From positions 1 through 47,442 of the forward strand of contig CALRBT010000007.1 in assembly GCA_943354475.1 (NCBI GenBank): DNA of 47,442 nucleotides, read 5' to 3'. Positions 21,219-39,760 of this stretch are shown here, in pieces; position 1 is the first letter of the stretch, and each line of letters opens with the position of its first letter. A program made the translations under genes and the position numbers. Source of the stretch: Parcubacteria group bacterium (lineage in GTDB: Bacteria; Patescibacteriota; Minisyncoccia; Phycocordibacterales; CALRBT01). The notes beneath the pieces are model-generated. The model saw only the letters and a program-made list of their open reading frames with translations, searched no databases and was not told the DNA's origin.

Positions 21219-21250
21219 CACAAAAGGCTCGTTTCTGAGCCTTTTGTGCT
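21217..21250 (+). terminator. Terminator-type hairpin
   Basis: AGCACAAAAGGCTC-gtttct-GAGCCTTTTGTGCT. Confidence 0.7.
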
Positions 21251-21296
21251 AAGAAGGGACACCTGGGACAGTTTTCTGTGCTACCATTACATAACA

Positions 21297-23528
21297 ATGA
21301 AGGAACATAATAAAAACCGTGGACGACACCTCCATCACCTTAAGAATATATCGTTTTTCTTTCTAGCAATTGCTTTTTTTATTGCTGGTTTTTTGACTAT
21401 TTGGATTGGAAGCATGGAGATACCAGATCTTACCTCCTTAAACCAAATAAAGGTGGTTCAATCGACCAAAATATATGACCGTACAGGGGAAACGCTTTTA
21501 TATGACGTCCATCAAGATATAAAACGAACAATTGTTCCATTTGACCAGATTTCTCCATATATCAAGAGTGCAACAATCGCAATTGAAGATGTTGAGTTTT
21601 ATCAACATCGTGGCATTAGACCTTTGGCAATTATTCGAGCGATACTAGCCAACACATTGATAAAACTCCATTTATCGAGTGGCTATACTCAGGGTGGGTC
21701 AACAATAACCCAACAGGTCGTGAAGAACTCATTGCTGACCCAAGATAGAACCTATACTCGTAAAATAAAGGAGTGGGTACTCTCCTTGAAACTTGAAGGG
21801 ATGCTCAGCAAAGATGATATCTTTTCTCTATACCTTAATGGGTCTTCTTATGGAGGTAGTGTCTATGGGGTTGAGGAGGCGTCACTTACCTTCTTTGGAA
21901 AACATGCGAAAGACCTTGGTTTGGTGGAGTCTGCGTATATAGCCGCACTTCCCCAAGGACCTTCTTACTACTCACCTTATGGTAGTCACAAAGATCAGCT
22001 TGAGTTACGAAAAACACTCGTTCTTAAACAAATGAGGCTAAATAACTTAATCACCGAGGGGGAGTACCAAGGTGCTTTACAAGAAGAGGTTGTATTTAAT
22101 CCTCCAAAAGATAATGGTATTACAGCACCTCACTTTGTTCTTTATATAAAAGATTATTTAGAGTCAAAATATGGCGAGCAGGCAGTCGAAGAGGAGGGTT
22201 ATAAGGTGATTACAACACTCGACGCAGAACTCCAAGTTAAGGCTGAGGAGACGGTAAAGAAGTATGCTCTCGACAACGCGGTTAAACACCAAGCCGAGAA
22301 TGCTTCTATGGTTGCCATTGACCCAAAAACAGGGCAAATTTTGGTAATGGTTGGTTCGAGAAATTACTTTGATAAGGACATTGATGGTAACTTCAATATT
22401 GCCTTCGCAAAACGCCAACCTGGTTCCACCTTTAAGCCTTTTGTGTACGCAACCGCATTTGAAAAAGGGTATCGTCCAGATACAGTTGTTTTCGACACCG
22501 AAACTGAGTTCTCAACCGCGTGTTCTGTTGATGGTAAACCACTCTATTCTGGTGTTGTTTGTTACAACCCCCAAAACTATGACGGTAAGTTCCGAGGCCC
22601 AATGACACTACGTAATGCACTGGCACAGTCAATCAACATACCCGCTATCAAAACGCTTTATTTGGCCGGACTTAAGGATTCACTCCAAACAGCAAAGGAT
22701 ATGGGAATTACTACCCTAACTGATGCGAGTCGTTATGGGTTAACCTTAGTTCTTGGTGGTGGTGAGGTGTCACTTATTGATATGACAAGCGCTTATGGGG
22801 TTTTTGCAAATGATGGGGTTCGCAACCCCTATGTTGGAATTCTTAAGGTTGAAGACGGTAAAGGTAAGGTTATAGAAGAGTATCAAGAAAAAAGTAGTGT
22901 CGTTCTCGACACAAACATCGCACGAACTATTTCCGACATACTAAATGACAACGCTGCAAGAGCTCCTATTTTTGGAGCAAACTCAACACTCTATTTTCCA
23001 GGAAGAGATGTTGCTGTAAAAACAGGTACGACAAATAGTTACCGAGATGCTTGGATTATAGGGTACACTCCTAGCCTAGTTGTTGGTTCTTGGGTCGGAA
23101 ATAATGACAACACACCAATGGATAGAAAGGTTGCTGGATATATTGCGGGTCCTATGTGGCACGAGTTCATGAATTTTGCACTTAAAAAATATCCCAACGA
23201 AGCCTTCATCCCTCCAAATGTTTTAGAGTCAGACGGCGTTAAACCAGCCTTGCGAGGTATCTGGCAAGGAGGAAGTGTTGAGGTTATTGATAAAAACACA
23301 GGCATCTTGGCAACACCAGATACATTAGAACAAGACAAAGCTGATAGAGTTACAACCGATACACACTCAATACTCTATTGGGTTAATACCAACGATCCAA
23401 ATGGAGCAATCCCGGAGAATAAAAATGATGACCCTCAATACCATCTTTGGGAGTACGGGGTAGCAAAGTGGGTTGCTAACAACGGATTTCCTCAAGGGGT
23501 TACGCAAACTATTCCAAGGACACAATAA
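21297..23528 (+). CDS. Class A penicillin-binding protein (transglycosylase + transpeptidase)
   Basis: IEDVEFYQHRGI...GGSTITQQVVKN (GT51), RQPGSTFKPFVYATAFE, SINIPAIK, VAVKTGTTNSYRDAWIIGYTP (transpeptidase). Confidence 0.96.
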   Translation: MKEHNKNRGRHLHHLKNISFFFLAIAFFIAGFLTIWIGSMEIPDLTSLNQIKVVQSTKIYDRTGETLLYDVHQDIKRTIVPFDQISPYIKSATIAIEDVEFYQHRGIRPLAIIRAILANTLIKLHLSSGYTQGGSTITQQVVKNSLLTQDRTYTRKIKEWVLSLKLEGMLSKDDIFSLYLNGSSYGGSVYGVEEASLTFFGKHAKDLGLVESAYIAALPQGPSYYSPYGSHKDQLELRKTLVLKQMRLNNLITEGEYQGALQEEVVFNPPKDNGITAPHFVLYIKDYLESKYGEQAVEEEGYKVITTLDAELQVKAEETVKKYALDNAVKHQAENASMVAIDPKTGQILVMVGSRNYFDKDIDGNFNIAFAKRQPGSTFKPFVYATAFEKGYRPDTVVFDTETEFSTACSVDGKPLYSGVVCYNPQNYDGKFRGPMTLRNALAQSINIPAIKTLYLAGLKDSLQTAKDMGITTLTDASRYGLTLVLGGGEVSLIDMTSAYGVFANDGVRNPYVGILKVEDGKGKVIEEYQEKSSVVLDTNIARTISDILNDNAARAPIFGANSTLYFPGRDVAVKTGTTNSYRDAWIIGYTPSLVVGSWVGNNDNTPMDRKVAGYIAGPMWHEFMNFALKKYPNEAFIPPNVLESDGVKPALRGIWQGGSVEVIDKNTGILATPDTLEQDKADRVTTDTHSILYWVNTNDPNGAIPENKNDDPQYHLWEYGVAKWVANNGFPQGVTQTIPRTQ

Positions 23529-27931: not shown

Positions 27932-28882
27932 CTACCTTACGAGCTGAATGTGCCAATGGTTATCGTCTATACGATATGACCAAATCCTACTCCCATCAGA
28001 TAGAATTGCGGAGTATTTTACTAAAGTGTTTGCTGGTATCGTGGCGGTTTTTGAAATACCCAAAAGACTCCTCATGTAAGTATCACTAGTTCCGCTAGCT
28101 CGTATGTCGATAGCTTCTCCATCTTCGTGAGGGTTAGCTCCTCCAGGAATTTCATTGGGACGTGACTCGCTACCATTTGAAACAACAACCTGACAAGCTT
28201 GGTCACTCTTTTTACAATCAGACTGAATCGTCAAAAGTGCGCTGAGTAAGTCAGGATTGACATCACCGAGACTAATACAAGCGACAGTTTGGCCTTCTGC
28301 ACAGACCGGAGCACTTATAACCCCCCCTTCATTTTCAAATATTGTTCTAAAGTTTGTGTCACGCGCCTCACTCAACCCATTTTTACAAAAACTAAATCCC
28401 AAATTCAGGCCTGCATAGAATCGATCCACACGGTTTGGAGCACTAACTGCATGTTTGAGTCGGCACATTTGGTCTTTTGATATACCGAGTTGTTTCATCA
28501 AATATACTTCCGCGAGCCTTCTAGTTTCCATAATAGGACTCTTCAAGATAGAAATATTAAAATATTGAGTTTTGGCTATATACCCTATAACATACGGAGG
28601 ACTATTTGTTGCTGATGATTCAATCAAACTATCACCAAAATGGTAACCTATGTAATAATACCCAGGGTTTAATGAATCTTTCACGACCTCTGGATTATCA
28701 ATAAAGTTCTTTGTTTCAATAACTTTTCCAGCTGAGTCTTTGACAGAAATAGTTGGTCCAGATTCGGTTGGGGTATCTATATTGGTAGCCGGTGGACTTT
28801 TATAAAAATACTTCAAACCAAAGAGTAGGATGACTCCTGTGGACAGTACAACCCCTGTGCTTATAAGTAATGTTTTTTTCAT
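27932..28882 (-). CDS. Membrane-anchored M15-like (VanY/D,D-carboxypeptidase-fold) peptidase
   Basis: N-terminal TM; C-terminal PGGANPHEDGEAIDIRASG...RIDDNHWHIQLVR matches the H-x(n)-D...HxH zinc-ligand pattern. Confidence 0.65.
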   Translation of the reverse strand: MKKTLLISTGVVLSTGVILLFGLKYFYKSPPATNIDTPTESGPTISVKDSAGKVIETKNFIDNPEVVKDSLNPGYYYIGYHFGDSLIESSATNSPPYVIGYIAKTQYFNISILKSPIMETRRLAEVYLMKQLGISKDQMCRLKHAVSAPNRVDRFYAGLNLGFSFCKNGLSEARDTNFRTIFENEGGVISAPVCAEGQTVACISLGDVNPDLLSALLTIQSDCKKSDQACQVVVSNGSESRPNEIPGGANPHEDGEAIDIRASGTSDTYMRSLLGISKTATIPANTLVKYSAILSDGSRIWSYRIDDNHWHIQLVR

Positions 28883-28901
28883 AGTTGCTATTGTTGTTTT
28901 G

Positions 28902-30269
28902 TTAACGACGTAGGCTTGTTCCAGCATCGTAATTATTTACACAAGTGCTTGCAGCCGTGTTCCACGCAACACCATTATTATTTCCGGTCCATGGTTGGTA
29001 TCCAAGCCTCCTAACCATAATAACGGCAGTTCGTAGATTACAATCGGCATTATTTTGATTTGAAAGACCAGAACAATCAGATGGGGCGTAAGCCCTCCAA
29101 TTCTCTTGTGAGATTTGGAAGGTACCACAAGGTCCTGTACCGCTACATCCAACAGGGCTACCACTGTTTTCAGTCATTGCAATGCAAGACATTGTGACAG
29201 CTTGTTCCCACGGAAGACCGGCGCTCTCAATGGCCTCTGGGCTACAGGCAGAGTTGCCTTCTGCGCAGACCGAGTCTCCTCTTCCTCCACCACTCCTTGG
29301 TAAGACCCCACAGTTTCTCGCCTCTCTACAAGCTGGAGTTACAAACCAATTACTTCCAGAACCCCCAACCGGCGCTTGCCACCCTGGATTATTTATCATT
29401 GGAAACGACAACCGAAACTTCAACAAATCAGGATTAACCGTATACAAAATCATATAGGCTGAAATCACCAAGAGTAATCCCCACAGCGCATTAGTAATCG
29501 TTTCTTTACCATGACTCTTCTGACTAAAGACGTCAGAAGTCATATAGGTAATTCCCCCAACAACAATCATCACAATAGCAAGTAATGCTGATACTCCTAT
29601 TAACAAATCAAACAAGAAAGGGAGGTATTGTTCTGGGTTGATGGGGGACGTTTTGTCCCCTGTAAGTGGTGCCAAAGGAACGTAGCCGAGAGAACCATTG
29701 CTGTTACCTATAGAAGTGTTTGTGGTGTTAGAAGGGCTGTTATTGGCTGAGTTTGATTGTTGTTGGCTTGTCGCACCGGATGTACCACTCTGTAGCTCTT
29801 CAGAAGTGTTCGTTGTATTAGAAGAAGTGTTGTTGGTTGAGTTTGATTGTTGCTGATTTGTCGCACCAGGTGTACCACTTCCTGACCACTCTGGCATATC
29901 CGGAAAGCCTCCTACGGGTACCCACTGTCTATCCCACGGTACTAAATTACCATAGCCCTCAATTAATTGAAGACGTTCAGCCTCCTCATCAAAGGAGGAG
30001 CATCTTGAAGCGTTTGCTCCTGACCCAGTACAGTTTCTGAATTGATCTAAGCCGAGTATGTATACTTGTGACTGCTCCTGGCAGTATGCCTCCCCCCCAG
30101 AATATTGCTGTGTGCAGGTAGTATAAAAAGCGTTACAGTTTTGTGTGAGGCCTGGAGCCTCACTTGTAACAGCAGGACAATTGTCAGCCGCAAAAACAGT
30201 ACCATATAAGCCTGCCTGTAGGAGAACAAATAGGGTTAAAACTATGAATTTGTAACTATACTTAACCAT
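28902..30269 (-). CDS. Signal peptide + repeat linker + VirB2-like two-TM pilin domain + C-terminal lysozyme-like transglycosylase domain
   Basis: YLPFLFDLLIGVSALLAIVMIVVGGITYMTSDVFSQKSHGKETITNALWGLLLVISAYMILYTVNPDLL; then EQAVTMSCIAMTENSGSPVGCSGTGPCGTFQISQENWRAYAPSDC... Confidence 0.75.
   Translation of the reverse strand: MVKYSYKFIVLTLFVLLQAGLYGTVFAADNCPAVTSEAPGLTQNCNAFYTTCTQQYSGGEAYCQEQSQVYILGLDQFRNCTGSGANASRCSSFDEEAERLQLIEGYGNLVPWDRQWVPVGGFPDMPEWSGSGTPGATNQQQSNSTNNTSSNTTNTSEELQSGTSGATSQQQSNSANNSPSNTTNTSIGNSNGSLGYVPLAPLTGDKTSPINPEQYLPFLFDLLIGVSALLAIVMIVVGGITYMTSDVFSQKSHGKETITNALWGLLLVISAYMILYTVNPDLLKFRLSFPMINNPGWQAPVGGSGSNWFVTPACREARNCGVLPRSGGGRGDSVCAEGNSACSPEAIESAGLPWEQAVTMSCIAMTENSGSPVGCSGTGPCGTFQISQENWRAYAPSDCSGLSNQNNADCNLRTAVIMVRRLGYQPWTGNNNGVAWNTAASTCVNNYDAGTSLRR
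29362..29641 (-). repeat. ~280-bp repeat, copy A (VirB2-like domain)
   Basis: By eye roughly 90% identical to 32012-32291, with a near-identical encoded peptide. Confidence 0.9.
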
Positions 30270-30271
30270 AT

Positions 30272-31522
30272 TTATTGAGCTACTCGGAGACTCCAAAGAG
30301 AATTATCCTTGTTATTAGTAAAAATTACATAATCTTCCTCAACACTTAGTTGGAGTTTTATCGCATCATACGCCTCAGCATTACTCTTTGCATAATAGAT
30401 AAGGTCAGTTTTTCCAGTAACCGTGTCTATCCTCCAGAAAGAATCAAAAAATGAAGTCACCCCCTGGTACCACAAATCTGGATGTTCTCCCTCAGGGATA
30501 CTCTGTGGGACGGCACAAAATAAAACCGTCTTTTCCTTTTTACTCCAAACACATTTTTCAGGAAGGGTTTTAGAAGAGAGGGTTCTGATAACTTGAGATT
30601 TTTCTTTCGGGGAAAGAGCCTTTAGTGATAGATTCTCACTCTTTACTTCGGAGTAAAGAACACTCTCTCCACTGAGATTAACAGAGGTCGTTAATCCGTA
30701 AATATTTGCTAAAATCTTTTGAGAGACTACCTTCTTTGAAATATTTGAAAGAAGAAAGGAAACACCTGGAATAGAAGCGGCAGCGTTTGAGGTTAAAAGT
30801 ATTGAGTCGTCCCCTGACCATATAGATTGCCAGTGGATAAGTGGGGATGAAAAAACCTGCACCTTCTTAGAACCATCTGGATCTGCAGTGTTACCAACAA
30901 CACCACTCTCTATGGCACCCAGATAAAATATCTTAGAGCCAGTGTTTGAAACTGAAAGCGTACTGATACCATCTGGAAGAAAATTTCCATCAAGAGAGTA
31001 CGGACTCATTTCAATAGTTGATGTTCCTGAAGAGGCTTTTAATTTTGCATAAAATGTTTTAACAACATCAGCTTTGTTTAGATATCGTAAAAAAACACTA
31101 CTACCATCAGGGAGCCAAACTGCCTCATAAATTTTTGGTATGGTTGTGTTCGAGAGTCTACTCTGAGCTCTGCTATCAACACGTGCCTCAAAAACATGTC
31201 CGGTTGCCCGTTCTACATAACGCACAAGTGTTGTAGAGGCACTTTGAATAACAATACTCCCTGCGACTGGCTCAGCGGTTATTTGGTACATTTGACCAAT
31301 AGGAGTATTTGGATCTGTTGAGGTTGGGTCGCCCTCCCCTGTTTGAGGATTACTTGAGGTAGGGTCTGTTGTATCTCCTGAGCTAGTTCCTACTGGGAAC
31401 TCTCCTCCACCAAAGATACTTCTTCCACCATTACTATTTGAAAGATAAAAGAAAGAGAGGAGTAGTATTCCTCCAAGTAGTAGGAGTGGAATTATAACAA
31501 AGAATAATTTTTTTCGAGACAT
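30272..31522 (-). CDS. Membrane-anchored extracytoplasmic protein, beta-propeller-like
   Basis: N-terminal TM, S/T/D/P-rich linker, then repeating PDGSSVFLRY.., SNTGSKIFYLG.., SGDDSILLTS.. strands. Confidence 0.5.
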   Translation of the reverse strand: MSRKKLFFVIIPLLLLGGILLLSFFYLSNSNGGRSIFGGGEFPVGTSSGDTTDPTSSNPQTGEGDPTSTDPNTPIGQMYQITAEPVAGSIVIQSASTTLVRYVERATGHVFEARVDSRAQSRLSNTTIPKIYEAVWLPDGSSVFLRYLNKADVVKTFYAKLKASSGTSTIEMSPYSLDGNFLPDGISTLSVSNTGSKIFYLGAIESGVVGNTADPDGSKKVQVFSSPLIHWQSIWSGDDSILLTSNAAASIPGVSFLLSNISKKVVSQKILANIYGLTTSVNLSGESVLYSEVKSENLSLKALSPKEKSQVIRTLSSKTLPEKCVWSKKEKTVLFCAVPQSIPEGEHPDLWYQGVTSFFDSFWRIDTVTGKTDLIYYAKSNAEAYDAIKLQLSVEEDYVIFTNNKDNSLWSLRVAQ

Positions 31523-31539
31523 GTTTTTAGTTTGTAATA

Positions 31540-32436
31540 TTAACGACGTTTCTCAAGATGCCAATGGTCGCCTTCATAGTAGACTCGGTAAGGCCCTCCC
31601 GGTAAGTTTGCTGTGTATCCATCGCCACTCGTGCTCGGTGCTGGGTTACTTGAGCCTAATCTTAAGATATTTCTCATTTGTGCATCGATCTGGGCACTAC
31701 TCCTGATGTCGACCGCATACCCGGCGGCATGAGGGTCGTTGTTTCCCCCATGAGGTTCGCTTCCTCCTGTGATGACCATTGGGCAGCCATTATTTTGAAG
31801 TTGGCAATCATCCCAAATACGCGTTATTCCCTGGAAGACTTCGGCCTGCACGCCGCCTATTTGTGTTCTGCAATTAGCTTGACCGTCACTACAAGGGCTG
31901 TTAACCGTTATTTGATTTCCACCTGTAACTAATAAGAGTGATCGTGCGTCATTCTCACCTATTGGTCCAGTTCCATAGTTTGGGTTACGTCCAGGGAGAT
32001 CACCAATCCCCACCCCAACCGGCGCCTGCCACCCAGGATAATCTATTGGCTCAAAATGTAATTTAAACTTCAGCAAATCAGGATTAACCGTATACAAAAT
32101 CATATAGGCTGAAATTACCAAAAGTAGTCCCCACAATGCATTAGTAATAGTTTCTTTACCATGACTCTTCTGACTAAATACGTCAGAGGTCATGTACGTA
32201 ATTCCCCCAACAACAATCATCACAATGGCAAGTAATGCTGATATTCCTATTAACAAGTCAAACAAGAAAGGGAGGTATTGTTCTGGGTTGATCGGGGTTT
32301 TTTCTTGACTTTGGGTAAGTGGGGCCATAAACACATAATCGAGACTCTCTGCTTTTACTTGAGGTATGCTCAAGAGCATTAGTGGTATCACAAAAAATGT
32401 AAGGACACTTATTTTTTTAAAAAAGACAACTTTCAT
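31540..32436 (-). CDS. Signal peptide + VirB2-like two-TM pilin domain + C-terminal M15-like peptidase domain
   Basis: VirB2-like block almost identical to that in 28902-30269, then GGSEPHGGNNDPHAAGYAVDIRSS...YYEGDHWHLEKRR. Confidence 0.75.
   Translation of the reverse strand: MKVVFFKKISVLTFFVIPLMLLSIPQVKAESLDYVFMAPLTQSQEKTPINPEQYLPFLFDLLIGISALLAIVMIVVGGITYMTSDVFSQKSHGKETITNALWGLLLVISAYMILYTVNPDLLKFKLHFEPIDYPGWQAPVGVGIGDLPGRNPNYGTGPIGENDARSLLLVTGGNQITVNSPCSDGQANCRTQIGGVQAEVFQGITRIWDDCQLQNNGCPMVITGGSEPHGGNNDPHAAGYAVDIRSSAQIDAQMRNILRLGSSNPAPSTSGDGYTANLPGGPYRVYYEGDHWHLEKRR
32012..32291 (-). repeat. ~280-bp repeat, copy B (VirB2-like domain)
   Basis: See copy A at 29362-29641. Confidence 0.9.
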
Positions 32437-32439
32437 TTT

Positions 32440-33453
32440 CTAGTTTCTTTGAGGACCAAAAGCAATAGTAAAGATGGTTCGTGCACCCTGGAGTATTTTG
32501 TTGGTCTGACTTGCTTCAAGGGATACCTCAGCATTTCCCGAAACACCCTTCTCTGGACGCAGAACAATTGCACTTGGATCATCCATTGAGCCAAGAACGG
32601 CGTTTCCACCGACACGCCACTGGTAGCTCATCAGTGGGTCAGATCGTTTTTTTGCCGAAAAAAAGTAAGGAACACCAACAAAACGCGACTCCTCGTCGGT
32701 TAGGAGAAAACTTGGACCAATTGCTCGGTTAGTCAATAATCCAAGGATAGGATTCTCTTCGTAAATAACTATCTTTGGATCGTTCGGGCTGATGGTGACA
32801 GAGGCTACGGCGGCTATTGCTTGATCAGAAGGGGTTGCAGAGACCTCTATTGTTGCAGGTCTTGAGATTTTTGGATAAACGTAGGTAAAAGAACTCTTTC
32901 CGTAGCCAGAGGCGTCACTAATCACATTTCCATTTACTTTCCAGGTGTATACGAGGGTGCTGTCGGATATTTTTACACCACCCTTTGTAATATCGGGGAA
33001 GGCAGTTATTTTCACCGCCCCTTCGCTTACAGGAAGGGGCATGCCCTTGTAGAAACTTGGGACATAGGTGATTCCTTCCCAACTAAGGTGTATGGACGCT
33101 GATTGTATTGAAATCGTTTTACTAATATCACCCACAGGAGTTGCGGCACTCATGAGGACAGAAGTGTTTGTCCCTAGGGCCCCTGTTGTGGCCGTAATTG
33201 ACTTGACTCCTACTCCTGAAGCAACGACCTTACCATTTACCACCCAAGTTATTTTGATGGTATCAAGGTTGACGCTAAAACTTTCTGCCTGAACCTCAAA
33301 CCGTTGATTTGGCCCAGGTTGATTTGGATAAACAGTAAGTGCAATAGAGTCCCCTACCTGGGGGATTCCTACCTGGGCCAAGCTACTAGAGCTACTCAAG
33401 AAAATAGATCCAAGGAGTACTAGTAAAAAAATAGGATAAAAAAAGTTTTTCAT
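32440..33453 (-). CDS. Secreted protein with repeated Ig/PKD-like domains
   Basis: Signal peptide; repeats such as ITWVVNGKVVASGVGVKSITATTGALG, LVYTWKVNGNVISDASGYGKSSFTYVYP, MSYQWRVGGNAVLGSMDDPSAIVLRP. Confidence 0.65.
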   Translation of the reverse strand: MKNFFYPIFLLVLLGSIFLSSSSSLAQVGIPQVGDSIALTVYPNQPGPNQRFEVQAESFSVNLDTIKITWVVNGKVVASGVGVKSITATTGALGTNTSVLMSAATPVGDISKTISIQSASIHLSWEGITYVPSFYKGMPLPVSEGAVKITAFPDITKGGVKISDSTLVYTWKVNGNVISDASGYGKSSFTYVYPKISRPATIEVSATPSDQAIAAVASVTISPNDPKIVIYEENPILGLLTNRAIGPSFLLTDEESRFVGVPYFFSAKKRSDPLMSYQWRVGGNAVLGSMDDPSAIVLRPEKGVSGNAEVSLEASQTNKILQGARTIFTIAFGPQRN

Positions 33454-33541
33454 AACAATAGTTTCAACACAACATATGTCTTTATTGTAACAAAAAAACA
33501 AGAATTAAAAGAGCTTTTTCTGCAACAAACCGATGTGTATT

Positions 33542-35359
33542 CTAGTTTGAGCTCGACGACTCCCCGAGTTCACCCTTTGCCCTTTTAATTGCCAATATTT
33601 GTGAAGGATCAGAGGTAATAATCTGATCTTCGGTATAGGAAGCAATAACTTTAATGGCCACATGCTTAATACCGGCAAAGAAAATGCCCTCCCCCACGTC
33701 AGATTCAAGGAGGAGGAATTTTTCTTCGTCGGTGAGGTTAAAAATCTTTTGAACATCATCTATTGACGAGGGGGATTGTTTTAAGAGAACTTGTATTGAT
33801 GAGTTGGTAATAATCGGTAACCCATACGGAGACCTGAGGAAGTCCTGCACATCCTGAGTAATAGTCGCTATTCCTAAAAAGTATTTTCTTCCACGTTTAG
33901 CAAGGCTAAAAAGGAATGATGCAGTATCTTCAGACTTCATCATCCACCACGCTTCGTCAATGACCAATAGTCGCTTCCTCAAATCTTTACGTATTGCACT
34001 CCAAATAAAGTGGGTGATGATGTACATAGCGACCGGTTTAAGCTCATCCTCCATGTCACGAACTGAAAATACAACGAATTTTTTATTAATATCAACGTTG
34101 GTTGGCTGGTTAATAAACCCAGCCCAAGTTCCTTTTGTGTATTTTGAAAGTCTCTGCACTAAAGATCCTCCCCCATCAAGTCCTGCAAGTACCAACTCAA
34201 AATCTGACATGAGGGGCGGCTCAATCTCTGCAAAGTTTGAATCAACGGTAATGTCTTTCAGTGCATACGTCTCAGTGATTGCTCGGTCAACCAACGCGTC
34301 TTCTTCGGCGCCAAGCCCTCCAAGCATGATTCGAAAGAGTCCAACAAGATTGATGATGTGTGATCTCAAAACGTCCGCAGGAGACTCATCTTCACGAGGA
34401 ATGGGTAAGTCGAACGGGTTAATATGATTCTCTGAGGTCAATGAAATATTAAAATGTCTGCCACCAATTGCCTCAGCCATGTATTCATATTCACGTTCTG
34501 GATCGATAACGATGACCTCGGTATCAAACATTAGTGTTCGCAAGATTTCAAGTTTGGTGGCATAAGATTTACCAGAACCTGACTTTGCTAAGGTGACAGA
34601 GTTGTAGTTTTCCAAAGAAAACCGATCAAAGAGAACCAGACTTGAGTTGTGACGATTAACTCCATAAAGAATCCCCTTGTTTGAGGTAAGGTCAAAGGAG
34701 ACAAAAGGAAAGACGCTTGATAATGGAGAAGAGTTTAGTTTGGAGTGGACATTTAAAATATCATCCCCAAGCGGAATAACACTCTGGAAACCGTCTTTTT
34801 GCTGGAAGAGAGCTGGTTTAACATAGATTAATTTCGATTCAAGAATCGACTTCACTTCTGACTCAGTTCTATCGAGCTCAGCCTTATCATCGCCGTAAAT
34901 TGATATATAAAGCCCGACATCAAAAAGCTTCTCTTGAGCCTGTTGAAGGTTGTCGCGGAGTGTTTCAATATCTTGGTAGGCGGTATCGAGCATCGGGTCA
35001 CGCACCAAACCTTTTTGCTCTCTCACCTGAATCTGGCTCTGGACCTCAGCTACCTTTCTTTGGAATTGGCGCAGTACTTGGGCAGTGTCGATTGGATGGA
35101 TAAAAATAGAAACATCAAAAACCTTATCAAGGTTGATGATCGGTGAGAACCAGCTATCAGTAAGATATCTTGGATATGAAATAACAAAGAATGTTCGCAC
35201 CATCTTGTCTCCAAGATTTATTTCCCTCGGTGTTATCTCTAGGGCTGAAGGAGCAATAATGTCTTTGAGCTCTAAAACTCCCGCCTCGTATATCTCGTGC
35301 GGTAAAATGGGGGCGATGTCTATTGGAGTGTTTTTTTTAAAAATATCAAAGATTCCCAT
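33542..35359 (-). CDS. VirB4/TraC-family type IV secretion ATPase
   Basis: YNSVTLAKSGSGKSYATKLEILR (Walker A), EVIVIDPEREYEYMAEAIGG, KRLLVIDEAWWMMKSEDTASFLFSLAKRGRKYFLGIATITQDVQDFL. Confidence 0.93.
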   Translation of the reverse strand: MGIFDIFKKNTPIDIAPILPHEIYEAGVLELKDIIAPSALEITPREINLGDKMVRTFFVISYPRYLTDSWFSPIINLDKVFDVSIFIHPIDTAQVLRQFQRKVAEVQSQIQVREQKGLVRDPMLDTAYQDIETLRDNLQQAQEKLFDVGLYISIYGDDKAELDRTESEVKSILESKLIYVKPALFQQKDGFQSVIPLGDDILNVHSKLNSSPLSSVFPFVSFDLTSNKGILYGVNRHNSSLVLFDRFSLENYNSVTLAKSGSGKSYATKLEILRTLMFDTEVIVIDPEREYEYMAEAIGGRHFNISLTSENHINPFDLPIPREDESPADVLRSHIINLVGLFRIMLGGLGAEEDALVDRAITETYALKDITVDSNFAEIEPPLMSDFELVLAGLDGGGSLVQRLSKYTKGTWAGFINQPTNVDINKKFVVFSVRDMEDELKPVAMYIITHFIWSAIRKDLRKRLLVIDEAWWMMKSEDTASFLFSLAKRGRKYFLGIATITQDVQDFLRSPYGLPIITNSSIQVLLKQSPSSIDDVQKIFNLTDEEKFLLLESDVGEGIFFAGIKHVAIKVIASYTEDQIITSDPSQILAIKRAKGELGESSSSN

Positions 35360-35361
35360 AG

Positions 35362-36015
35362 TTACTTAGTTAATTGGATTGGTTTCTCAAGATCTCCTGG
35401 GTTAAATATTTTGTAAAACAACTCAATGATTTCTTCAGTTCCAAGTTGTACAATCCTGATTCCCGTACGAGTGAGGCCTTGTTCAACCACACTGAGACGT
35501 TGCTCAATTTGCGTACGTTGCTCCTCAAAGTCATCAAGTTTTTTATCAACGGAACTCTTTATATTCTCAGTACCTCCACCAAACCCAAGGAAGTTTTTTG
35601 GTAATATCTTATTTGTCTGTAGTGTTGGTGGGCTATAGGGAACAACGATAAAGAAACTTTTTGACATAATATTACTATTCTCAACAAAGTTCTTGATAAA
35701 GCCTATATATTCTCTCGTCTGAATCTTGAGCAGCTCCCCCACTTGTTCCTTGTAACGCTCTTCGAGAAGAGCGATATAAGGTCTAATATCAAGACGTCTG
35801 GATTGCACAAAAATTTGGATTGAAAAATCAAGTGAGTTCAGGAAATTTTGAAACTGCATGGTGATTGCAGTCTGCTCGTCCTCTGACTTGAGAGCAAAGT
35901 TTAGAGATGATGCTAAAAGGACAGCGCGCATCGAGCCATCTTTGAGTATAGCAATACCATCACGGATTTCTTGGATTGGAACAAAGTCTTGAGTCGCTTT
36001 TGCTTGAGGAGCCAT
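35362..36015 (-). CDS. VirB4/TraC N-terminal-domain-like protein
   Basis: QEIRDGIAILKDGSMRAVLLASSLNFALKSEDEQTAITMQFQNFLNSLDFSIQIFVQSRRLDIRPYI; tightly coupled to the downstream VirB4. Confidence 0.65.
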   Translation of the reverse strand: MAPQAKATQDFVPIQEIRDGIAILKDGSMRAVLLASSLNFALKSEDEQTAITMQFQNFLNSLDFSIQIFVQSRRLDIRPYIALLEERYKEQVGELLKIQTREYIGFIKNFVENSNIMSKSFFIVVPYSPPTLQTNKILPKNFLGFGGGTENIKSSVDKKLDDFEEQRTQIEQRLSVVEQGLTRTGIRIVQLGTEEIIELFYKIFNPGDLEKPIQLTK

Positions 36016-36143: not shown

Positions 36144-36572
36144 TTAGTTCTCCAGATTATCTGTGTTTGGGTGAGATGGTCCGTGAATATCAAGACTCCA
36201 TGCCAGATCTTTAAGTTTACTATCAGAGAGTTTTGGAACATAGATTGGTGAAGATCTCTCTTGTGCCCCTTGGGTCTTACCAACGACTTCTTTATTTTCT
36301 TTTTTCCATATATAGAGTTTATCCCCGACATAGAATTTGAAAGCTGCTTCAAGGACAAAGATGAAAGGTTTATTGTTTATTTTATAGAATGCTAAAGCAA
36401 GAGACAGGATGACAATAGGTATTGCAAGCAAAAAGCCAACATAGAATCCTAAAAACCTATACAACAAATAGGTTGCAAACAAGGCGCCACCAATGTACAT
36501 CCCTTGCTTTAAAGTAAGGGGGCCGATGATTTTATCTTCAATCTCAATAAATTGTGGTACTTGGAAGCGCAT
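36144..36572 (-). CDS. PrgI family (VirB3-like) membrane protein
   Basis: MRFQVPQFIEIEDKIIGPLTLKQGMYIGGALFATYLLYRFLGF..., upstream of VirB4. Confidence 0.8.
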   Translation of the reverse strand: MRFQVPQFIEIEDKIIGPLTLKQGMYIGGALFATYLLYRFLGFYVGFLLAIPIVILSLALAFYKINNKPFIFVLEAAFKFYVGDKLYIWKKENKEVVGKTQGAQERSSPIYVPKLSDSKLKDLAWSLDIHGPSHPNTDNLEN

Positions 36573-37573: not shown

Positions 37574-39760
37574 TTATTTCTTATTTATTGCTAAGTCAAA
37601 TTTAAACTGTCTGATTTGTTGTTCAGCTGCATACTTTTTATCTGTTGCGGTGTTGAGATCTGTTACTTCGGCAGGTGTTAGCGGTCTCGTGCCAGCCTTC
37701 TGTATTTGTGTGAGGCGCTTGATCTCTGCCTTGTGTTCATTTAGCTCATCTGTCTTTTCTTTAATCCTATCTTCAAGACCATCGATTTTAACATCCTTAC
37801 CTATACGGTCAGAAGCTTTTTTGCTTGATTTTGTAACAACCCAGCGCACCAATGACCTACTCGTAAGTGCTTGCGCGTAAGCAGTTGGCCTTGCCCTCGA
37901 AACTTCTCCTTTGACGGTCTTTGCTCTAGTGATTGCCCCCTCGGCCCCAGTCTTCAGAGCGGTATCCCTTCGTATCCCCTCGTTGTACGCATCGATAGTT
38001 TGTTGCTCGTCGACGGTTAGTGGGCGACCAGCAGCTGCTCTTGTGGTATCAGCAACAACCTTTTGTTTTTCTCTAATGTTACGGTCCAAATTCTCTTTTT
38101 CATCAGTCTGCTCTTTAATGATCTTGTCTTGTGCGCCAAGTTTCTTCTTGTCTACTCCAAGTGTCTCAACAAACTTAGCTTTCTCCACCGCCTTATCATC
38201 GATTCGTTTCTGGTAACTTCCAGTAGTTCCTTTGCCAAAGTTTGCACCAATCTGCTCTCCGGTTTTTGTAGCTATTTTAGAGTTTCTAACATCATAAGTT
38301 CCTGAAGCCGCCTTGCTTGTCGTATTATAAAGTAACTTACCGGTCCTGCTTTTTGCTGCATAATTTTTAAACCCTTCATTACCTGCTAGTGCAGCGGCCC
38401 CTCTTCCAAGGACTTGTCGTCCGAGGAATCCACCAACCCCACCAAGGGCAAGACCAGCAGCGCCTCCAATTAAGGTTTTTCCAAGACCGGAGCCTGGGAC
38501 TGATTTTGAGAGATCTTTAGCAATTTTTAGAGATGCCCAAATAAGACCGATAACAATCGCATAAACGAAGAAGACTAAGTAGTAGTTAATACCAGAAGCT
38601 GCGGAAACGGTTCCGCCCGCCCCAGCTGCAATTCCCTCTCCAAGTGTGGCTGCACGACTACCATCCAGAGGATTCAATAATCTGAGCATCGCAGAAATAA
38701 TGTAGGCACAAACCCAAATAAGGAAAAGGTAAATTGGAGCGACAGTACAGTATTGAATAAGGTGCTTAAGCCACTCACCCCAATGTTTATTGTATGATCC
38801 TGGGAATGCGTACATGACAAAGGCCAACGGAGAAAGAATCATGAGGATAAGAAGTCCAATAGTTCTCACAATGAACGTGATGGCTGCACTTAGAAATACC
38901 CAAGCGGTAATTACTGCAACGACAGTTCCGAGAAGGTATGAGATTATGGCGAGGTAGTAATAGTCTTTACCACCTACTGCGGCACTGGTCAATAGGCCGT
39001 TGTTGAGACCTAGCCCATTCATAAAGAGACCCGACAGGCTCATACTATCGTTTGGCACGAGTATTTTATAGAACACCAAGGAAACCATGTTTGATGCATC
39101 AATGGCAAGTTTGGTGAATAGAAGACTGAAGTTGACAAGAAAGGCGATAATAATAACGTTCTTTATTCTGGTCCCTGGATGATCTTCTTGGCCGAGGATG
39201 AGCATGATTCCTGTGTAAAGGAGAATAAAGATAAAGAACATGTTGGCAATGTCCCGCAGTACCCCCCATCCAATATTGATAGCCCCGGTTAAACTGAGCG
39301 CAAATTCGCCACTTTGACTAAAGACGGTAATAATACTGAGCTTGATGCTTTGATCGAGAAGCATTCCAGCTAGGAAAAGAATTTGTCCTGCGATATAAAA
39401 GATGACCCAGGCGATCCACGCAAAACCACGTGTTACCCAACATCCGACATCTGTAAAACAACCAGCCCCATTTGCAGGAGCTTTTGTGGCGTTTGACCCA
39501 GAACCTTGGGTAGAATTTTGAGGCGAGGTTGGATCTGCGGCTAGTGCCGCATTAACATTTCTGATGTTCTGCGTCCCATTTGGTGTTGCCGCTTCTTGTG
39601 CCCTTGCATTCTCAACTAAAGCATTCAAGGTCGCGGGATCGGTTGCTCCCGGTGCTTCCGCATAAACTGGCATTGCTTGAAAAATTGACGCCACAAACAT
39701 GACAGTAAAAACGACAACAATAAGAAATGAATGAATAAATTTTTTACTGAGAAATTTCAT
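37574..39760 (-). CDS. VirB6/TrbL-like polytopic membrane protein with long charged C-terminal tail
   Basis: Signal sequence, multiple TM segments (VLRDIANMFFIFILLYTGIMLILGQ..., VNFSLLFTKLAIDASNMVSLVFY..., LAFVMYAFPGSYNKHWGEWLKHLIQYCTVAPIYLFLIWV), coiled tail. Confidence 0.75.
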   Translation of the reverse strand: MKFLSKKFIHSFLIVVVFTVMFVASIFQAMPVYAEAPGATDPATLNALVENARAQEAATPNGTQNIRNVNAALAADPTSPQNSTQGSGSNATKAPANGAGCFTDVGCWVTRGFAWIAWVIFYIAGQILFLAGMLLDQSIKLSIITVFSQSGEFALSLTGAINIGWGVLRDIANMFFIFILLYTGIMLILGQEDHPGTRIKNVIIIAFLVNFSLLFTKLAIDASNMVSLVFYKILVPNDSMSLSGLFMNGLGLNNGLLTSAAVGGKDYYYLAIISYLLGTVVAVITAWVFLSAAITFIVRTIGLLILMILSPLAFVMYAFPGSYNKHWGEWLKHLIQYCTVAPIYLFLIWVCAYIISAMLRLLNPLDGSRAATLGEGIAAGAGGTVSAASGINYYLVFFVYAIVIGLIWASLKIAKDLSKSVPGSGLGKTLIGGAAGLALGGVGGFLGRQVLGRGAAALAGNEGFKNYAAKSRTGKLLYNTTSKAASGTYDVRNSKIATKTGEQIGANFGKGTTGSYQKRIDDKAVEKAKFVETLGVDKKKLGAQDKIIKEQTDEKENLDRNIREKQKVVADTTRAAAGRPLTVDEQQTIDAYNEGIRRDTALKTGAEGAITRAKTVKGEVSRARPTAYAQALTSRSLVRWVVTKSSKKASDRIGKDVKIDGLEDRIKEKTDELNEHKAEIKRLTQIQKAGTRPLTPAEVTDLNTATDKKYAAEQQIRQFKFDLAINKK

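Follow-up and report, generated by a model that had tools for sequence, protein, structure and literature searches.

Two genes on the minus strand of the 47,442-nucleotide stretch of DNA analysed here (the window), at 28902..30269 and 31540..32436, each combine a practically constant block of the T4SS pilin family with a different C-terminal tail of the peptidoglycan-hydrolase type. Taken together, our data make it probable that these fusions are T4SS-docked peptidoglycan hydrolases, in which the pilin hairpin docks and the tail is an exchangeable payload.

The source genome (786 kb, 98% complete) carries its T4SS operon on the minus strand, adjoining yidC, dnaA and dnaN. This operon encodes PrgI, a TrsD-like VirB4 N-terminal protein, a CD1110-type VirB4 and the two fusions, along with two conserved proteins that are exported or anchored. 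Profile matches identify the CD1110-type VirB4 ATPase (33542..35359), the VirB4 N-terminal part or TrsD-like protein (35362..36015; TrsD E 1.3e-5, VirB4_plasma E 7e-9) and the PrgI/VirB3-like protein (36144..36572; PF12666 E 3.8e-7), all on the minus strand, as are the following three. By hydropathy, the protein at 37574..39760 is polytopic with about eight hydrophobic segments and, although the Pfam search gave no family match for it, it is a candidate VirB6-like subunit. Conservation and hydropathy define a single-TM protein (30272..31522), which has no Pfam family over cut-off and is kept beside the pilin-block gene across the order, and Pfam and the comparison of loci define a conserved signal/TM protein with weak PKD-like matches (32440..33501) between VirB4 and the pilin-block gene. 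The T4SS context that the initial annotation had assumed is thus borne out in this CPR genome by PrgI, TrsD-like protein and VirB4 around the fusions, and by block proteins beside VirB4 in relatives. Coupling-protein-like matches in the genome are weak and located on other contigs than the operon; a relaxase is mostly missing from published Patescibacterial T4SS (PMC12102498). Five plain, diverged T4SS pilins form an array on another contig of the genome (C2; L008 5405-7853), far from the VirB4 operon.

In both fusions the hydrophobic N-terminus is a signal peptide, which is followed by a PF18895 (T4SS_pilin) hairpin and then by a tail of about 170 residues. The PF18895 matches, on the minus strand at 29439..29615 in the lysozyme-like fusion (E 2.4e-8) and at 32089..32265 in the M15-like fusion (E 3.8e-9), exceed the curated cut-off (33.4 and 29.5 bits for the two fusions versus 26.6), and the structure model of the M15-like fusion shows two helices (55-83 and 87-117), i.e. 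the signal peptide plus two membrane helices of a T4SS_pilin protein. The block had been described as VirB2-like, which holds with respect to PF18895 but not to TrbC/VirB2 (PF04956) itself, which both window blocks match below cut-off (E 0.15-0.22) and for which a few relatives reach E 1e-5; because this match is weak, polymerisation of the block is not to be assumed. The near-identity of the two-TM block in both ORFs, also noticed initially, is confirmed: the 70-residue cores show 98.6% protein identity, with a single residue differing, and DNA identity over the surrounding 95 codons is 87.7%. With 13 synonymous differences in the core (dN 0.006, dS 0.34), a duplication introduced by the assembly is ruled out. 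The two blocks are alike in protein but not in DNA, and their protein sameness is therefore kept by selection, the simplest reason being that both copies must fit one common partner.

The M15-like fusion, delimited by its ORF, Pfam, motif alignment and a structure model, consists of the signal peptide, the block (58-116), a linker and a tail (approx. 163-298) resembling M15/LAS zinc peptidases. Its conserved zinc-motif positions are H237, D244 and HWH at 292-294; in the pattern HxxxxxxD + HxH, positions H65, D72, H120 and W121 of the aligned domain are invariant in 14 sequences, and the final position is H or D. The tail is modelled with a pLDDT of 83-92 over most of the domain, and Foldseek returned Sonic hedgehog as the top match in the PDB (probability 1.00, E 0.034) and, at E 7e-5, a microviral protein of the same name. 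Sonic hedgehog and M15 peptidases have a common fold. Thus, the zinc ligands expected of an M15 enzyme are present, and the model points to a LAS/Hedgehog fold, at an E value of only 0.034 in the PDB. Since no M15 Pfam family came out over cut-off, we call the tail M15-like rather than filing it as M15, and since hhalign did not connect the window's M15-like family to VanY-type tails (E 0.25), the link between these two rests on motif and fold. The tail is predicted to be an M15/Hedgehog-like zinc peptidase domain.

Pairwise and locus comparisons revealed a second M15-like domain, which the initial annotation had overlooked, at the C-terminus of a third cassette protein (27932..28927, minus strand). 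It is 31% identical to the tail of the M15-like fusion (E 7e-18, pairwise) and is preceded by an N-terminal TM segment and a conserved region of about 180 residues, i.e. by a different membrane anchor without pilin block. Homologues of this anchor at loci L092 and L141, located between two pilin-block genes, do not have the M15 part, which is a further sign of domain exchange.

The lysozyme-like fusion, delimited by its ORF, Pfam and profile comparison, can start either with TTG at 30296 (longest ORF) or with ATG at codon 10, i.e. at 30269, the latter yielding a clean signal peptide (MVKYSYKFIVLTLFVLLQAGLYGTVFA-AD). Within the 464-residue ORF, the signal peptide is followed by a Ser/Asn/Thr-rich region of about 180 residues, the block (228-286) and the tail (approx. 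315-464). At ORF residues 140-200 or so, the Ser/Asn/Thr-rich sequence ahead of the block includes a duplicated segment (GTPGATNQQQSNSTNNTSSNTTNTS / GTSGATSQQQSNSANNSPSNTTNTS), and this entire stretch is missing in the M15-like fusion. The tail contains the motif 'AMTENSG...CGTFQI' and matches Transglycosylas (E 0.004) and Destabilase (E 0.014) in Pfam, both under cut-off; the best PDB sequences for its profile are two lysozymes (3cb7, E 0.1; 2dqa, E 0.23). Compared with the Pfam-positive SLT tails of relatives, the profile reaches E 5e-4, and Glu and GxFQ coincide in the alignment; unrelated tail classes give E 0.07-0.8. The catalytic Glu and the GxxQ-type motif after it, as expected of lysozyme and SLT domains, are recognisable, with MTENSG and CGTFQI aligning with lysozymes and SLT tails. 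AlphaFold2 modelled this tail with a pLDDT of about 30, there being too few homologues. The proposal of two different hydrolase-type tails thus holds, with a lysozyme/SLT-like nature suggested by weaker, sequence-level evidence that reaches no Pfam cut-off. No other SLT-family protein was found in this genome.

Fusions of this kind are not confined to the window. At E 1e-8, the M15 fusion is matched, mostly via its block, in 120 of the 148 genomes of the order. Most of 80 loci, which were fetched around block matches and thus show context and not frequency, share the order dnaA, yidC, single-TM protein, pilin-block protein, PKD-like protein, VirB4, TrsD-like protein and PrgI. When 80 loci were chosen by VirB4 instead, a block protein was nearby in 69, the two sets overlapping in some genomes; the VirB4-based relatives are Paceibacteria (Zambryski-, Taylor-, Nomura-, Kaiser-, Adlerbacteria and similar), which identifies the source of the window as a Patescibacterium. 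Across a phylum sample the block occurs in 356 of 381 genomes, often in tandem and in frames of 300 to >1000 residues, although many of the matches are short. At three loci from other classes or orders of the phylum (L264, L279 and L282), three or four long pilin-block proteins follow one another in tandem; their tails are C39-like, PKD or of unknown type. Most relatives also have a member of a small membrane protein family (85 members, e.g. L071 4532-4981) between VirB4 and the PKD-like gene, a position from which it is absent in the window.

The tails at this operon slot are highly diverse. Across the order they belong to at least eight peptidoglycan-hydrolase families or are coiled-coil, Cys-rich or low-complexity sequences. 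Pfam recognises SLT, SLT_3, NlpC/P60, VanY, M15_4, M23, 3D, Amidase_5 and glucosaminidase within the order, and SLT, C39, M23, M15, NlpC/P60, glucosaminidase and GH18 in other classes, such that looking for further C-terminal enzymes in CPR genomes, as had been suggested, was fruitful. Of 194 tails, 45 carry the M15-type zinc motif, where shuffling gives an expectation of 0.14, and four neighbouring families have none. An analogous SLT-like expression did not discriminate (20 observed versus 10.6 expected in shuffles), and SLT counts were therefore taken from Pfam only. Judged by approximate motif rules, roughly half of the order's tails contain no recognised enzyme, so that ‘hydrolase’ denotes one payload class only; 14 of 152 tails are shorter than 60 residues, some slot proteins being nearly tailless. 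Separate hydrolases standing in for missing enzyme tails were considered and rejected, the extra neighbour genes representing mainly one small membrane family. Pairs of a glycan cutter and a peptide cutter (lysozyme/SLT with M15-like) recur in the window and at L077, L131, L141, L146 and L295.

Exchange of tails can be seen both between close relatives and within single loci. Loci L142 and L143, with VirB4 proteins 95% identical, and L118 and L122 (97%) have unrelated tails on blocks that are 84-87% identical. For pairs at the same locus within the order, the blocks are 92-100% identical in 10 of 12 cases and the tails unrelated or nearly so, compared with an average block identity of 39% between unrelated loci. 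Some same-locus block pairs, not including that of the window, are identical even in DNA, which reflects recent copying or conversion. One scaffold with interchangeable hydrolases, as inferred initially from the window, is thus a general arrangement, with Pfam-recognised tail families in relatives and exchange between close relatives. A further pilin-block protein, whose gene points away from the operon, is encoded in L142 (15396-16970) and in L143 (15700-16794); its block is nearly the same as in the operon copy, and its tails in the two genomes differ but are related. A phage or plasmid origin was rejected, with the M15 fusion having no relatives in plasmids and the lysozyme fusion none in phages or viral contigs.

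How could such proteins operate? Sec would export each fusion, and the VirB2-family helical hairpin would hold it in the membrane. As a signal peptide is followed by two hydrophobic helices, both ends should be outside, with the C-terminal enzyme presumably outside the cell and facing the wall. Given that the hairpin belongs to a T4SS pilin family and the gene to a T4SS operon, we propose docking in the machine or its filament, where the hairpin may fit as a minor pilin or dock on the VirB3/4/6 platform. The enzyme would thereby be placed where the machine crosses the wall. The two payloads in the window may be complementary, the predicted lysozyme-like domain acting on glycan strands and the M15-like zinc peptidase on stem peptides, and together they could breach peptidoglycan at the point of contact between a wall and the machine, or a pilus of the five plain pilins. 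As to whose wall this is, we lean towards that of the host, since exchanged tails point to an external target that varies; the cell's own wall, for which the VirB1 precedent argues, is a possible if less probable target.

An alternative of this latter kind is that the fusions are simply the VirB1 equivalent, acting only on the own wall in order to clear room for the T4SS channel, with the hairpin merely as an anchor. The Gram-positive VirB1 repertoire (SLT, CHAP, LytM and MUR, all membrane-anchored; PMC12857230) is indeed close to these tails, the window VirB4 falls into the Gram-positive conjugation class and the genome has no other SLT protein; moreover, such a role is possible because the cell makes its own peptidoglycan, with e.g. 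a bifunctional PBP encoded at 21246-23528. An enzyme for the own wall would be expected to be constant, yet tails have been replaced by unrelated ones among relatives with 95-97% identical VirB4, and many orthologues carry no recognisable enzyme, which leaves this explanation tenable but rather doubtful.

Another alternative is a polymorphic adhesin or effector system, in which the block would be a delivery or display module, the tails host-matched adhesins or effectors and wall cutting just one payload. It would accommodate a fixed locus at which a conserved N-terminal module is joined to unrelated C-termini, the identical blocks that bear different tails in the same genome, and the coiled-coil-like, Cys-rich, PKD, GH18 and C39 tails; yet those tails that Pfam recognises are overwhelmingly peptidoglycan hydrolases, and immunity-like partner genes are not consistently found in the neighbourhood, so this option can be held only tentatively. 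We consider it very improbable, finally, that the fusions are ordinary membrane-anchored hydrolases whose PF18895 match reflects a generic two-helix hairpin unrelated to T4SS. Such hairpins do match many unrelated hairpins by fold, and the TrbC/VirB2 match is weak, but the PF18895 match exceeds a curated cut-off, is lacking in 13 of 14 control genomes and occurs in 81 of 90 block proteins, and the gene is part of the T4SS operon at almost every locus of the order.

T4SS-docked hydrolases with exchangeable tails would share traits with several known systems. Polymorphic toxins and evolved T6SS spike proteins also join a constant delivery module to exchangeable C-terminal domains, but the fusions differ in their T4SS context, in having no consistent immunity genes and in that their recognised payloads are mostly wall hydrolases. 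VirB2/TrbC pilins (PF04956) likewise have a signal peptide and a pair of hydrophobic helices plus a short polar loop, and are encoded at a T4SS locus; plain ones, however, are small and have no catalytic tail, and the fusions match their family below cut-off. Gram-positive VirB1 proteins, unlike the fusions, have an anchor that is not a pilin-family hairpin and carry several enzyme domains on one protein. Among these systems, PrgK (pCF10), TraG (pIP501) and Orf14 (Tn916) are similarly T4SS-encoded and membrane-anchored, with extracellular domains of the SLT, CHAP or LytM type (PMC12857230).

Patescibacterial T4SS, their proximity to dnaA and VirB2-like arrays are already described (PMC12102498, PMC10633639, PMC12857230). 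The T4SS of Southlakia epibionticum (SEML1_0006-0019; Wang 2023, PMC10633639; PMC12102498) likewise has VirB2-like pilins and a VirB4/PrgI/TrsD-type operon, and such operons often lie near dnaA. In this species, the Patescibacterium studied by genetics, the T4SS is essential for epibiotic growth, with its role having been called completely unknown (PMC11665869), and the peptidase and lysozyme homologues encoded just downstream of virB4 are reported to be essential too (Quinonero-Coronel 2025, PMC12102498). In these two papers on the T4SS (PMC10633639, PMC12102498), pilins and VirB1 homologues are dealt with separately, and pilus biogenesis is said to have apparently no need of VirB1. In the published texts we consulted, we found no description of a pilin-hydrolase fusion or of tail exchange.

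The fusions combine features of T4SS wall hydrolases with those of T4SS pilins, an arrangement that is general beyond the window, and they qualify the published view that most VirB2-bearing genomes are without VirB1 function. A pilin module that carries interchangeable wall hydrolases at one constant operon position close to dnaA provides a concrete and testable job for the T4SS, and from it possible adaptation to hosts can be read in the genomes of a mostly uncultured phylum. It is conceivable, if still speculative, that throughout the phylum the T4SS pilin module acts as a polymorphic display scaffold, with a payload (often a wall hydrolase or two of them) that is swapped with hosts and a module that is kept identical for co-assembly. 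If so, the T4SS of these epibionts would be a machine for breaching the host wall.
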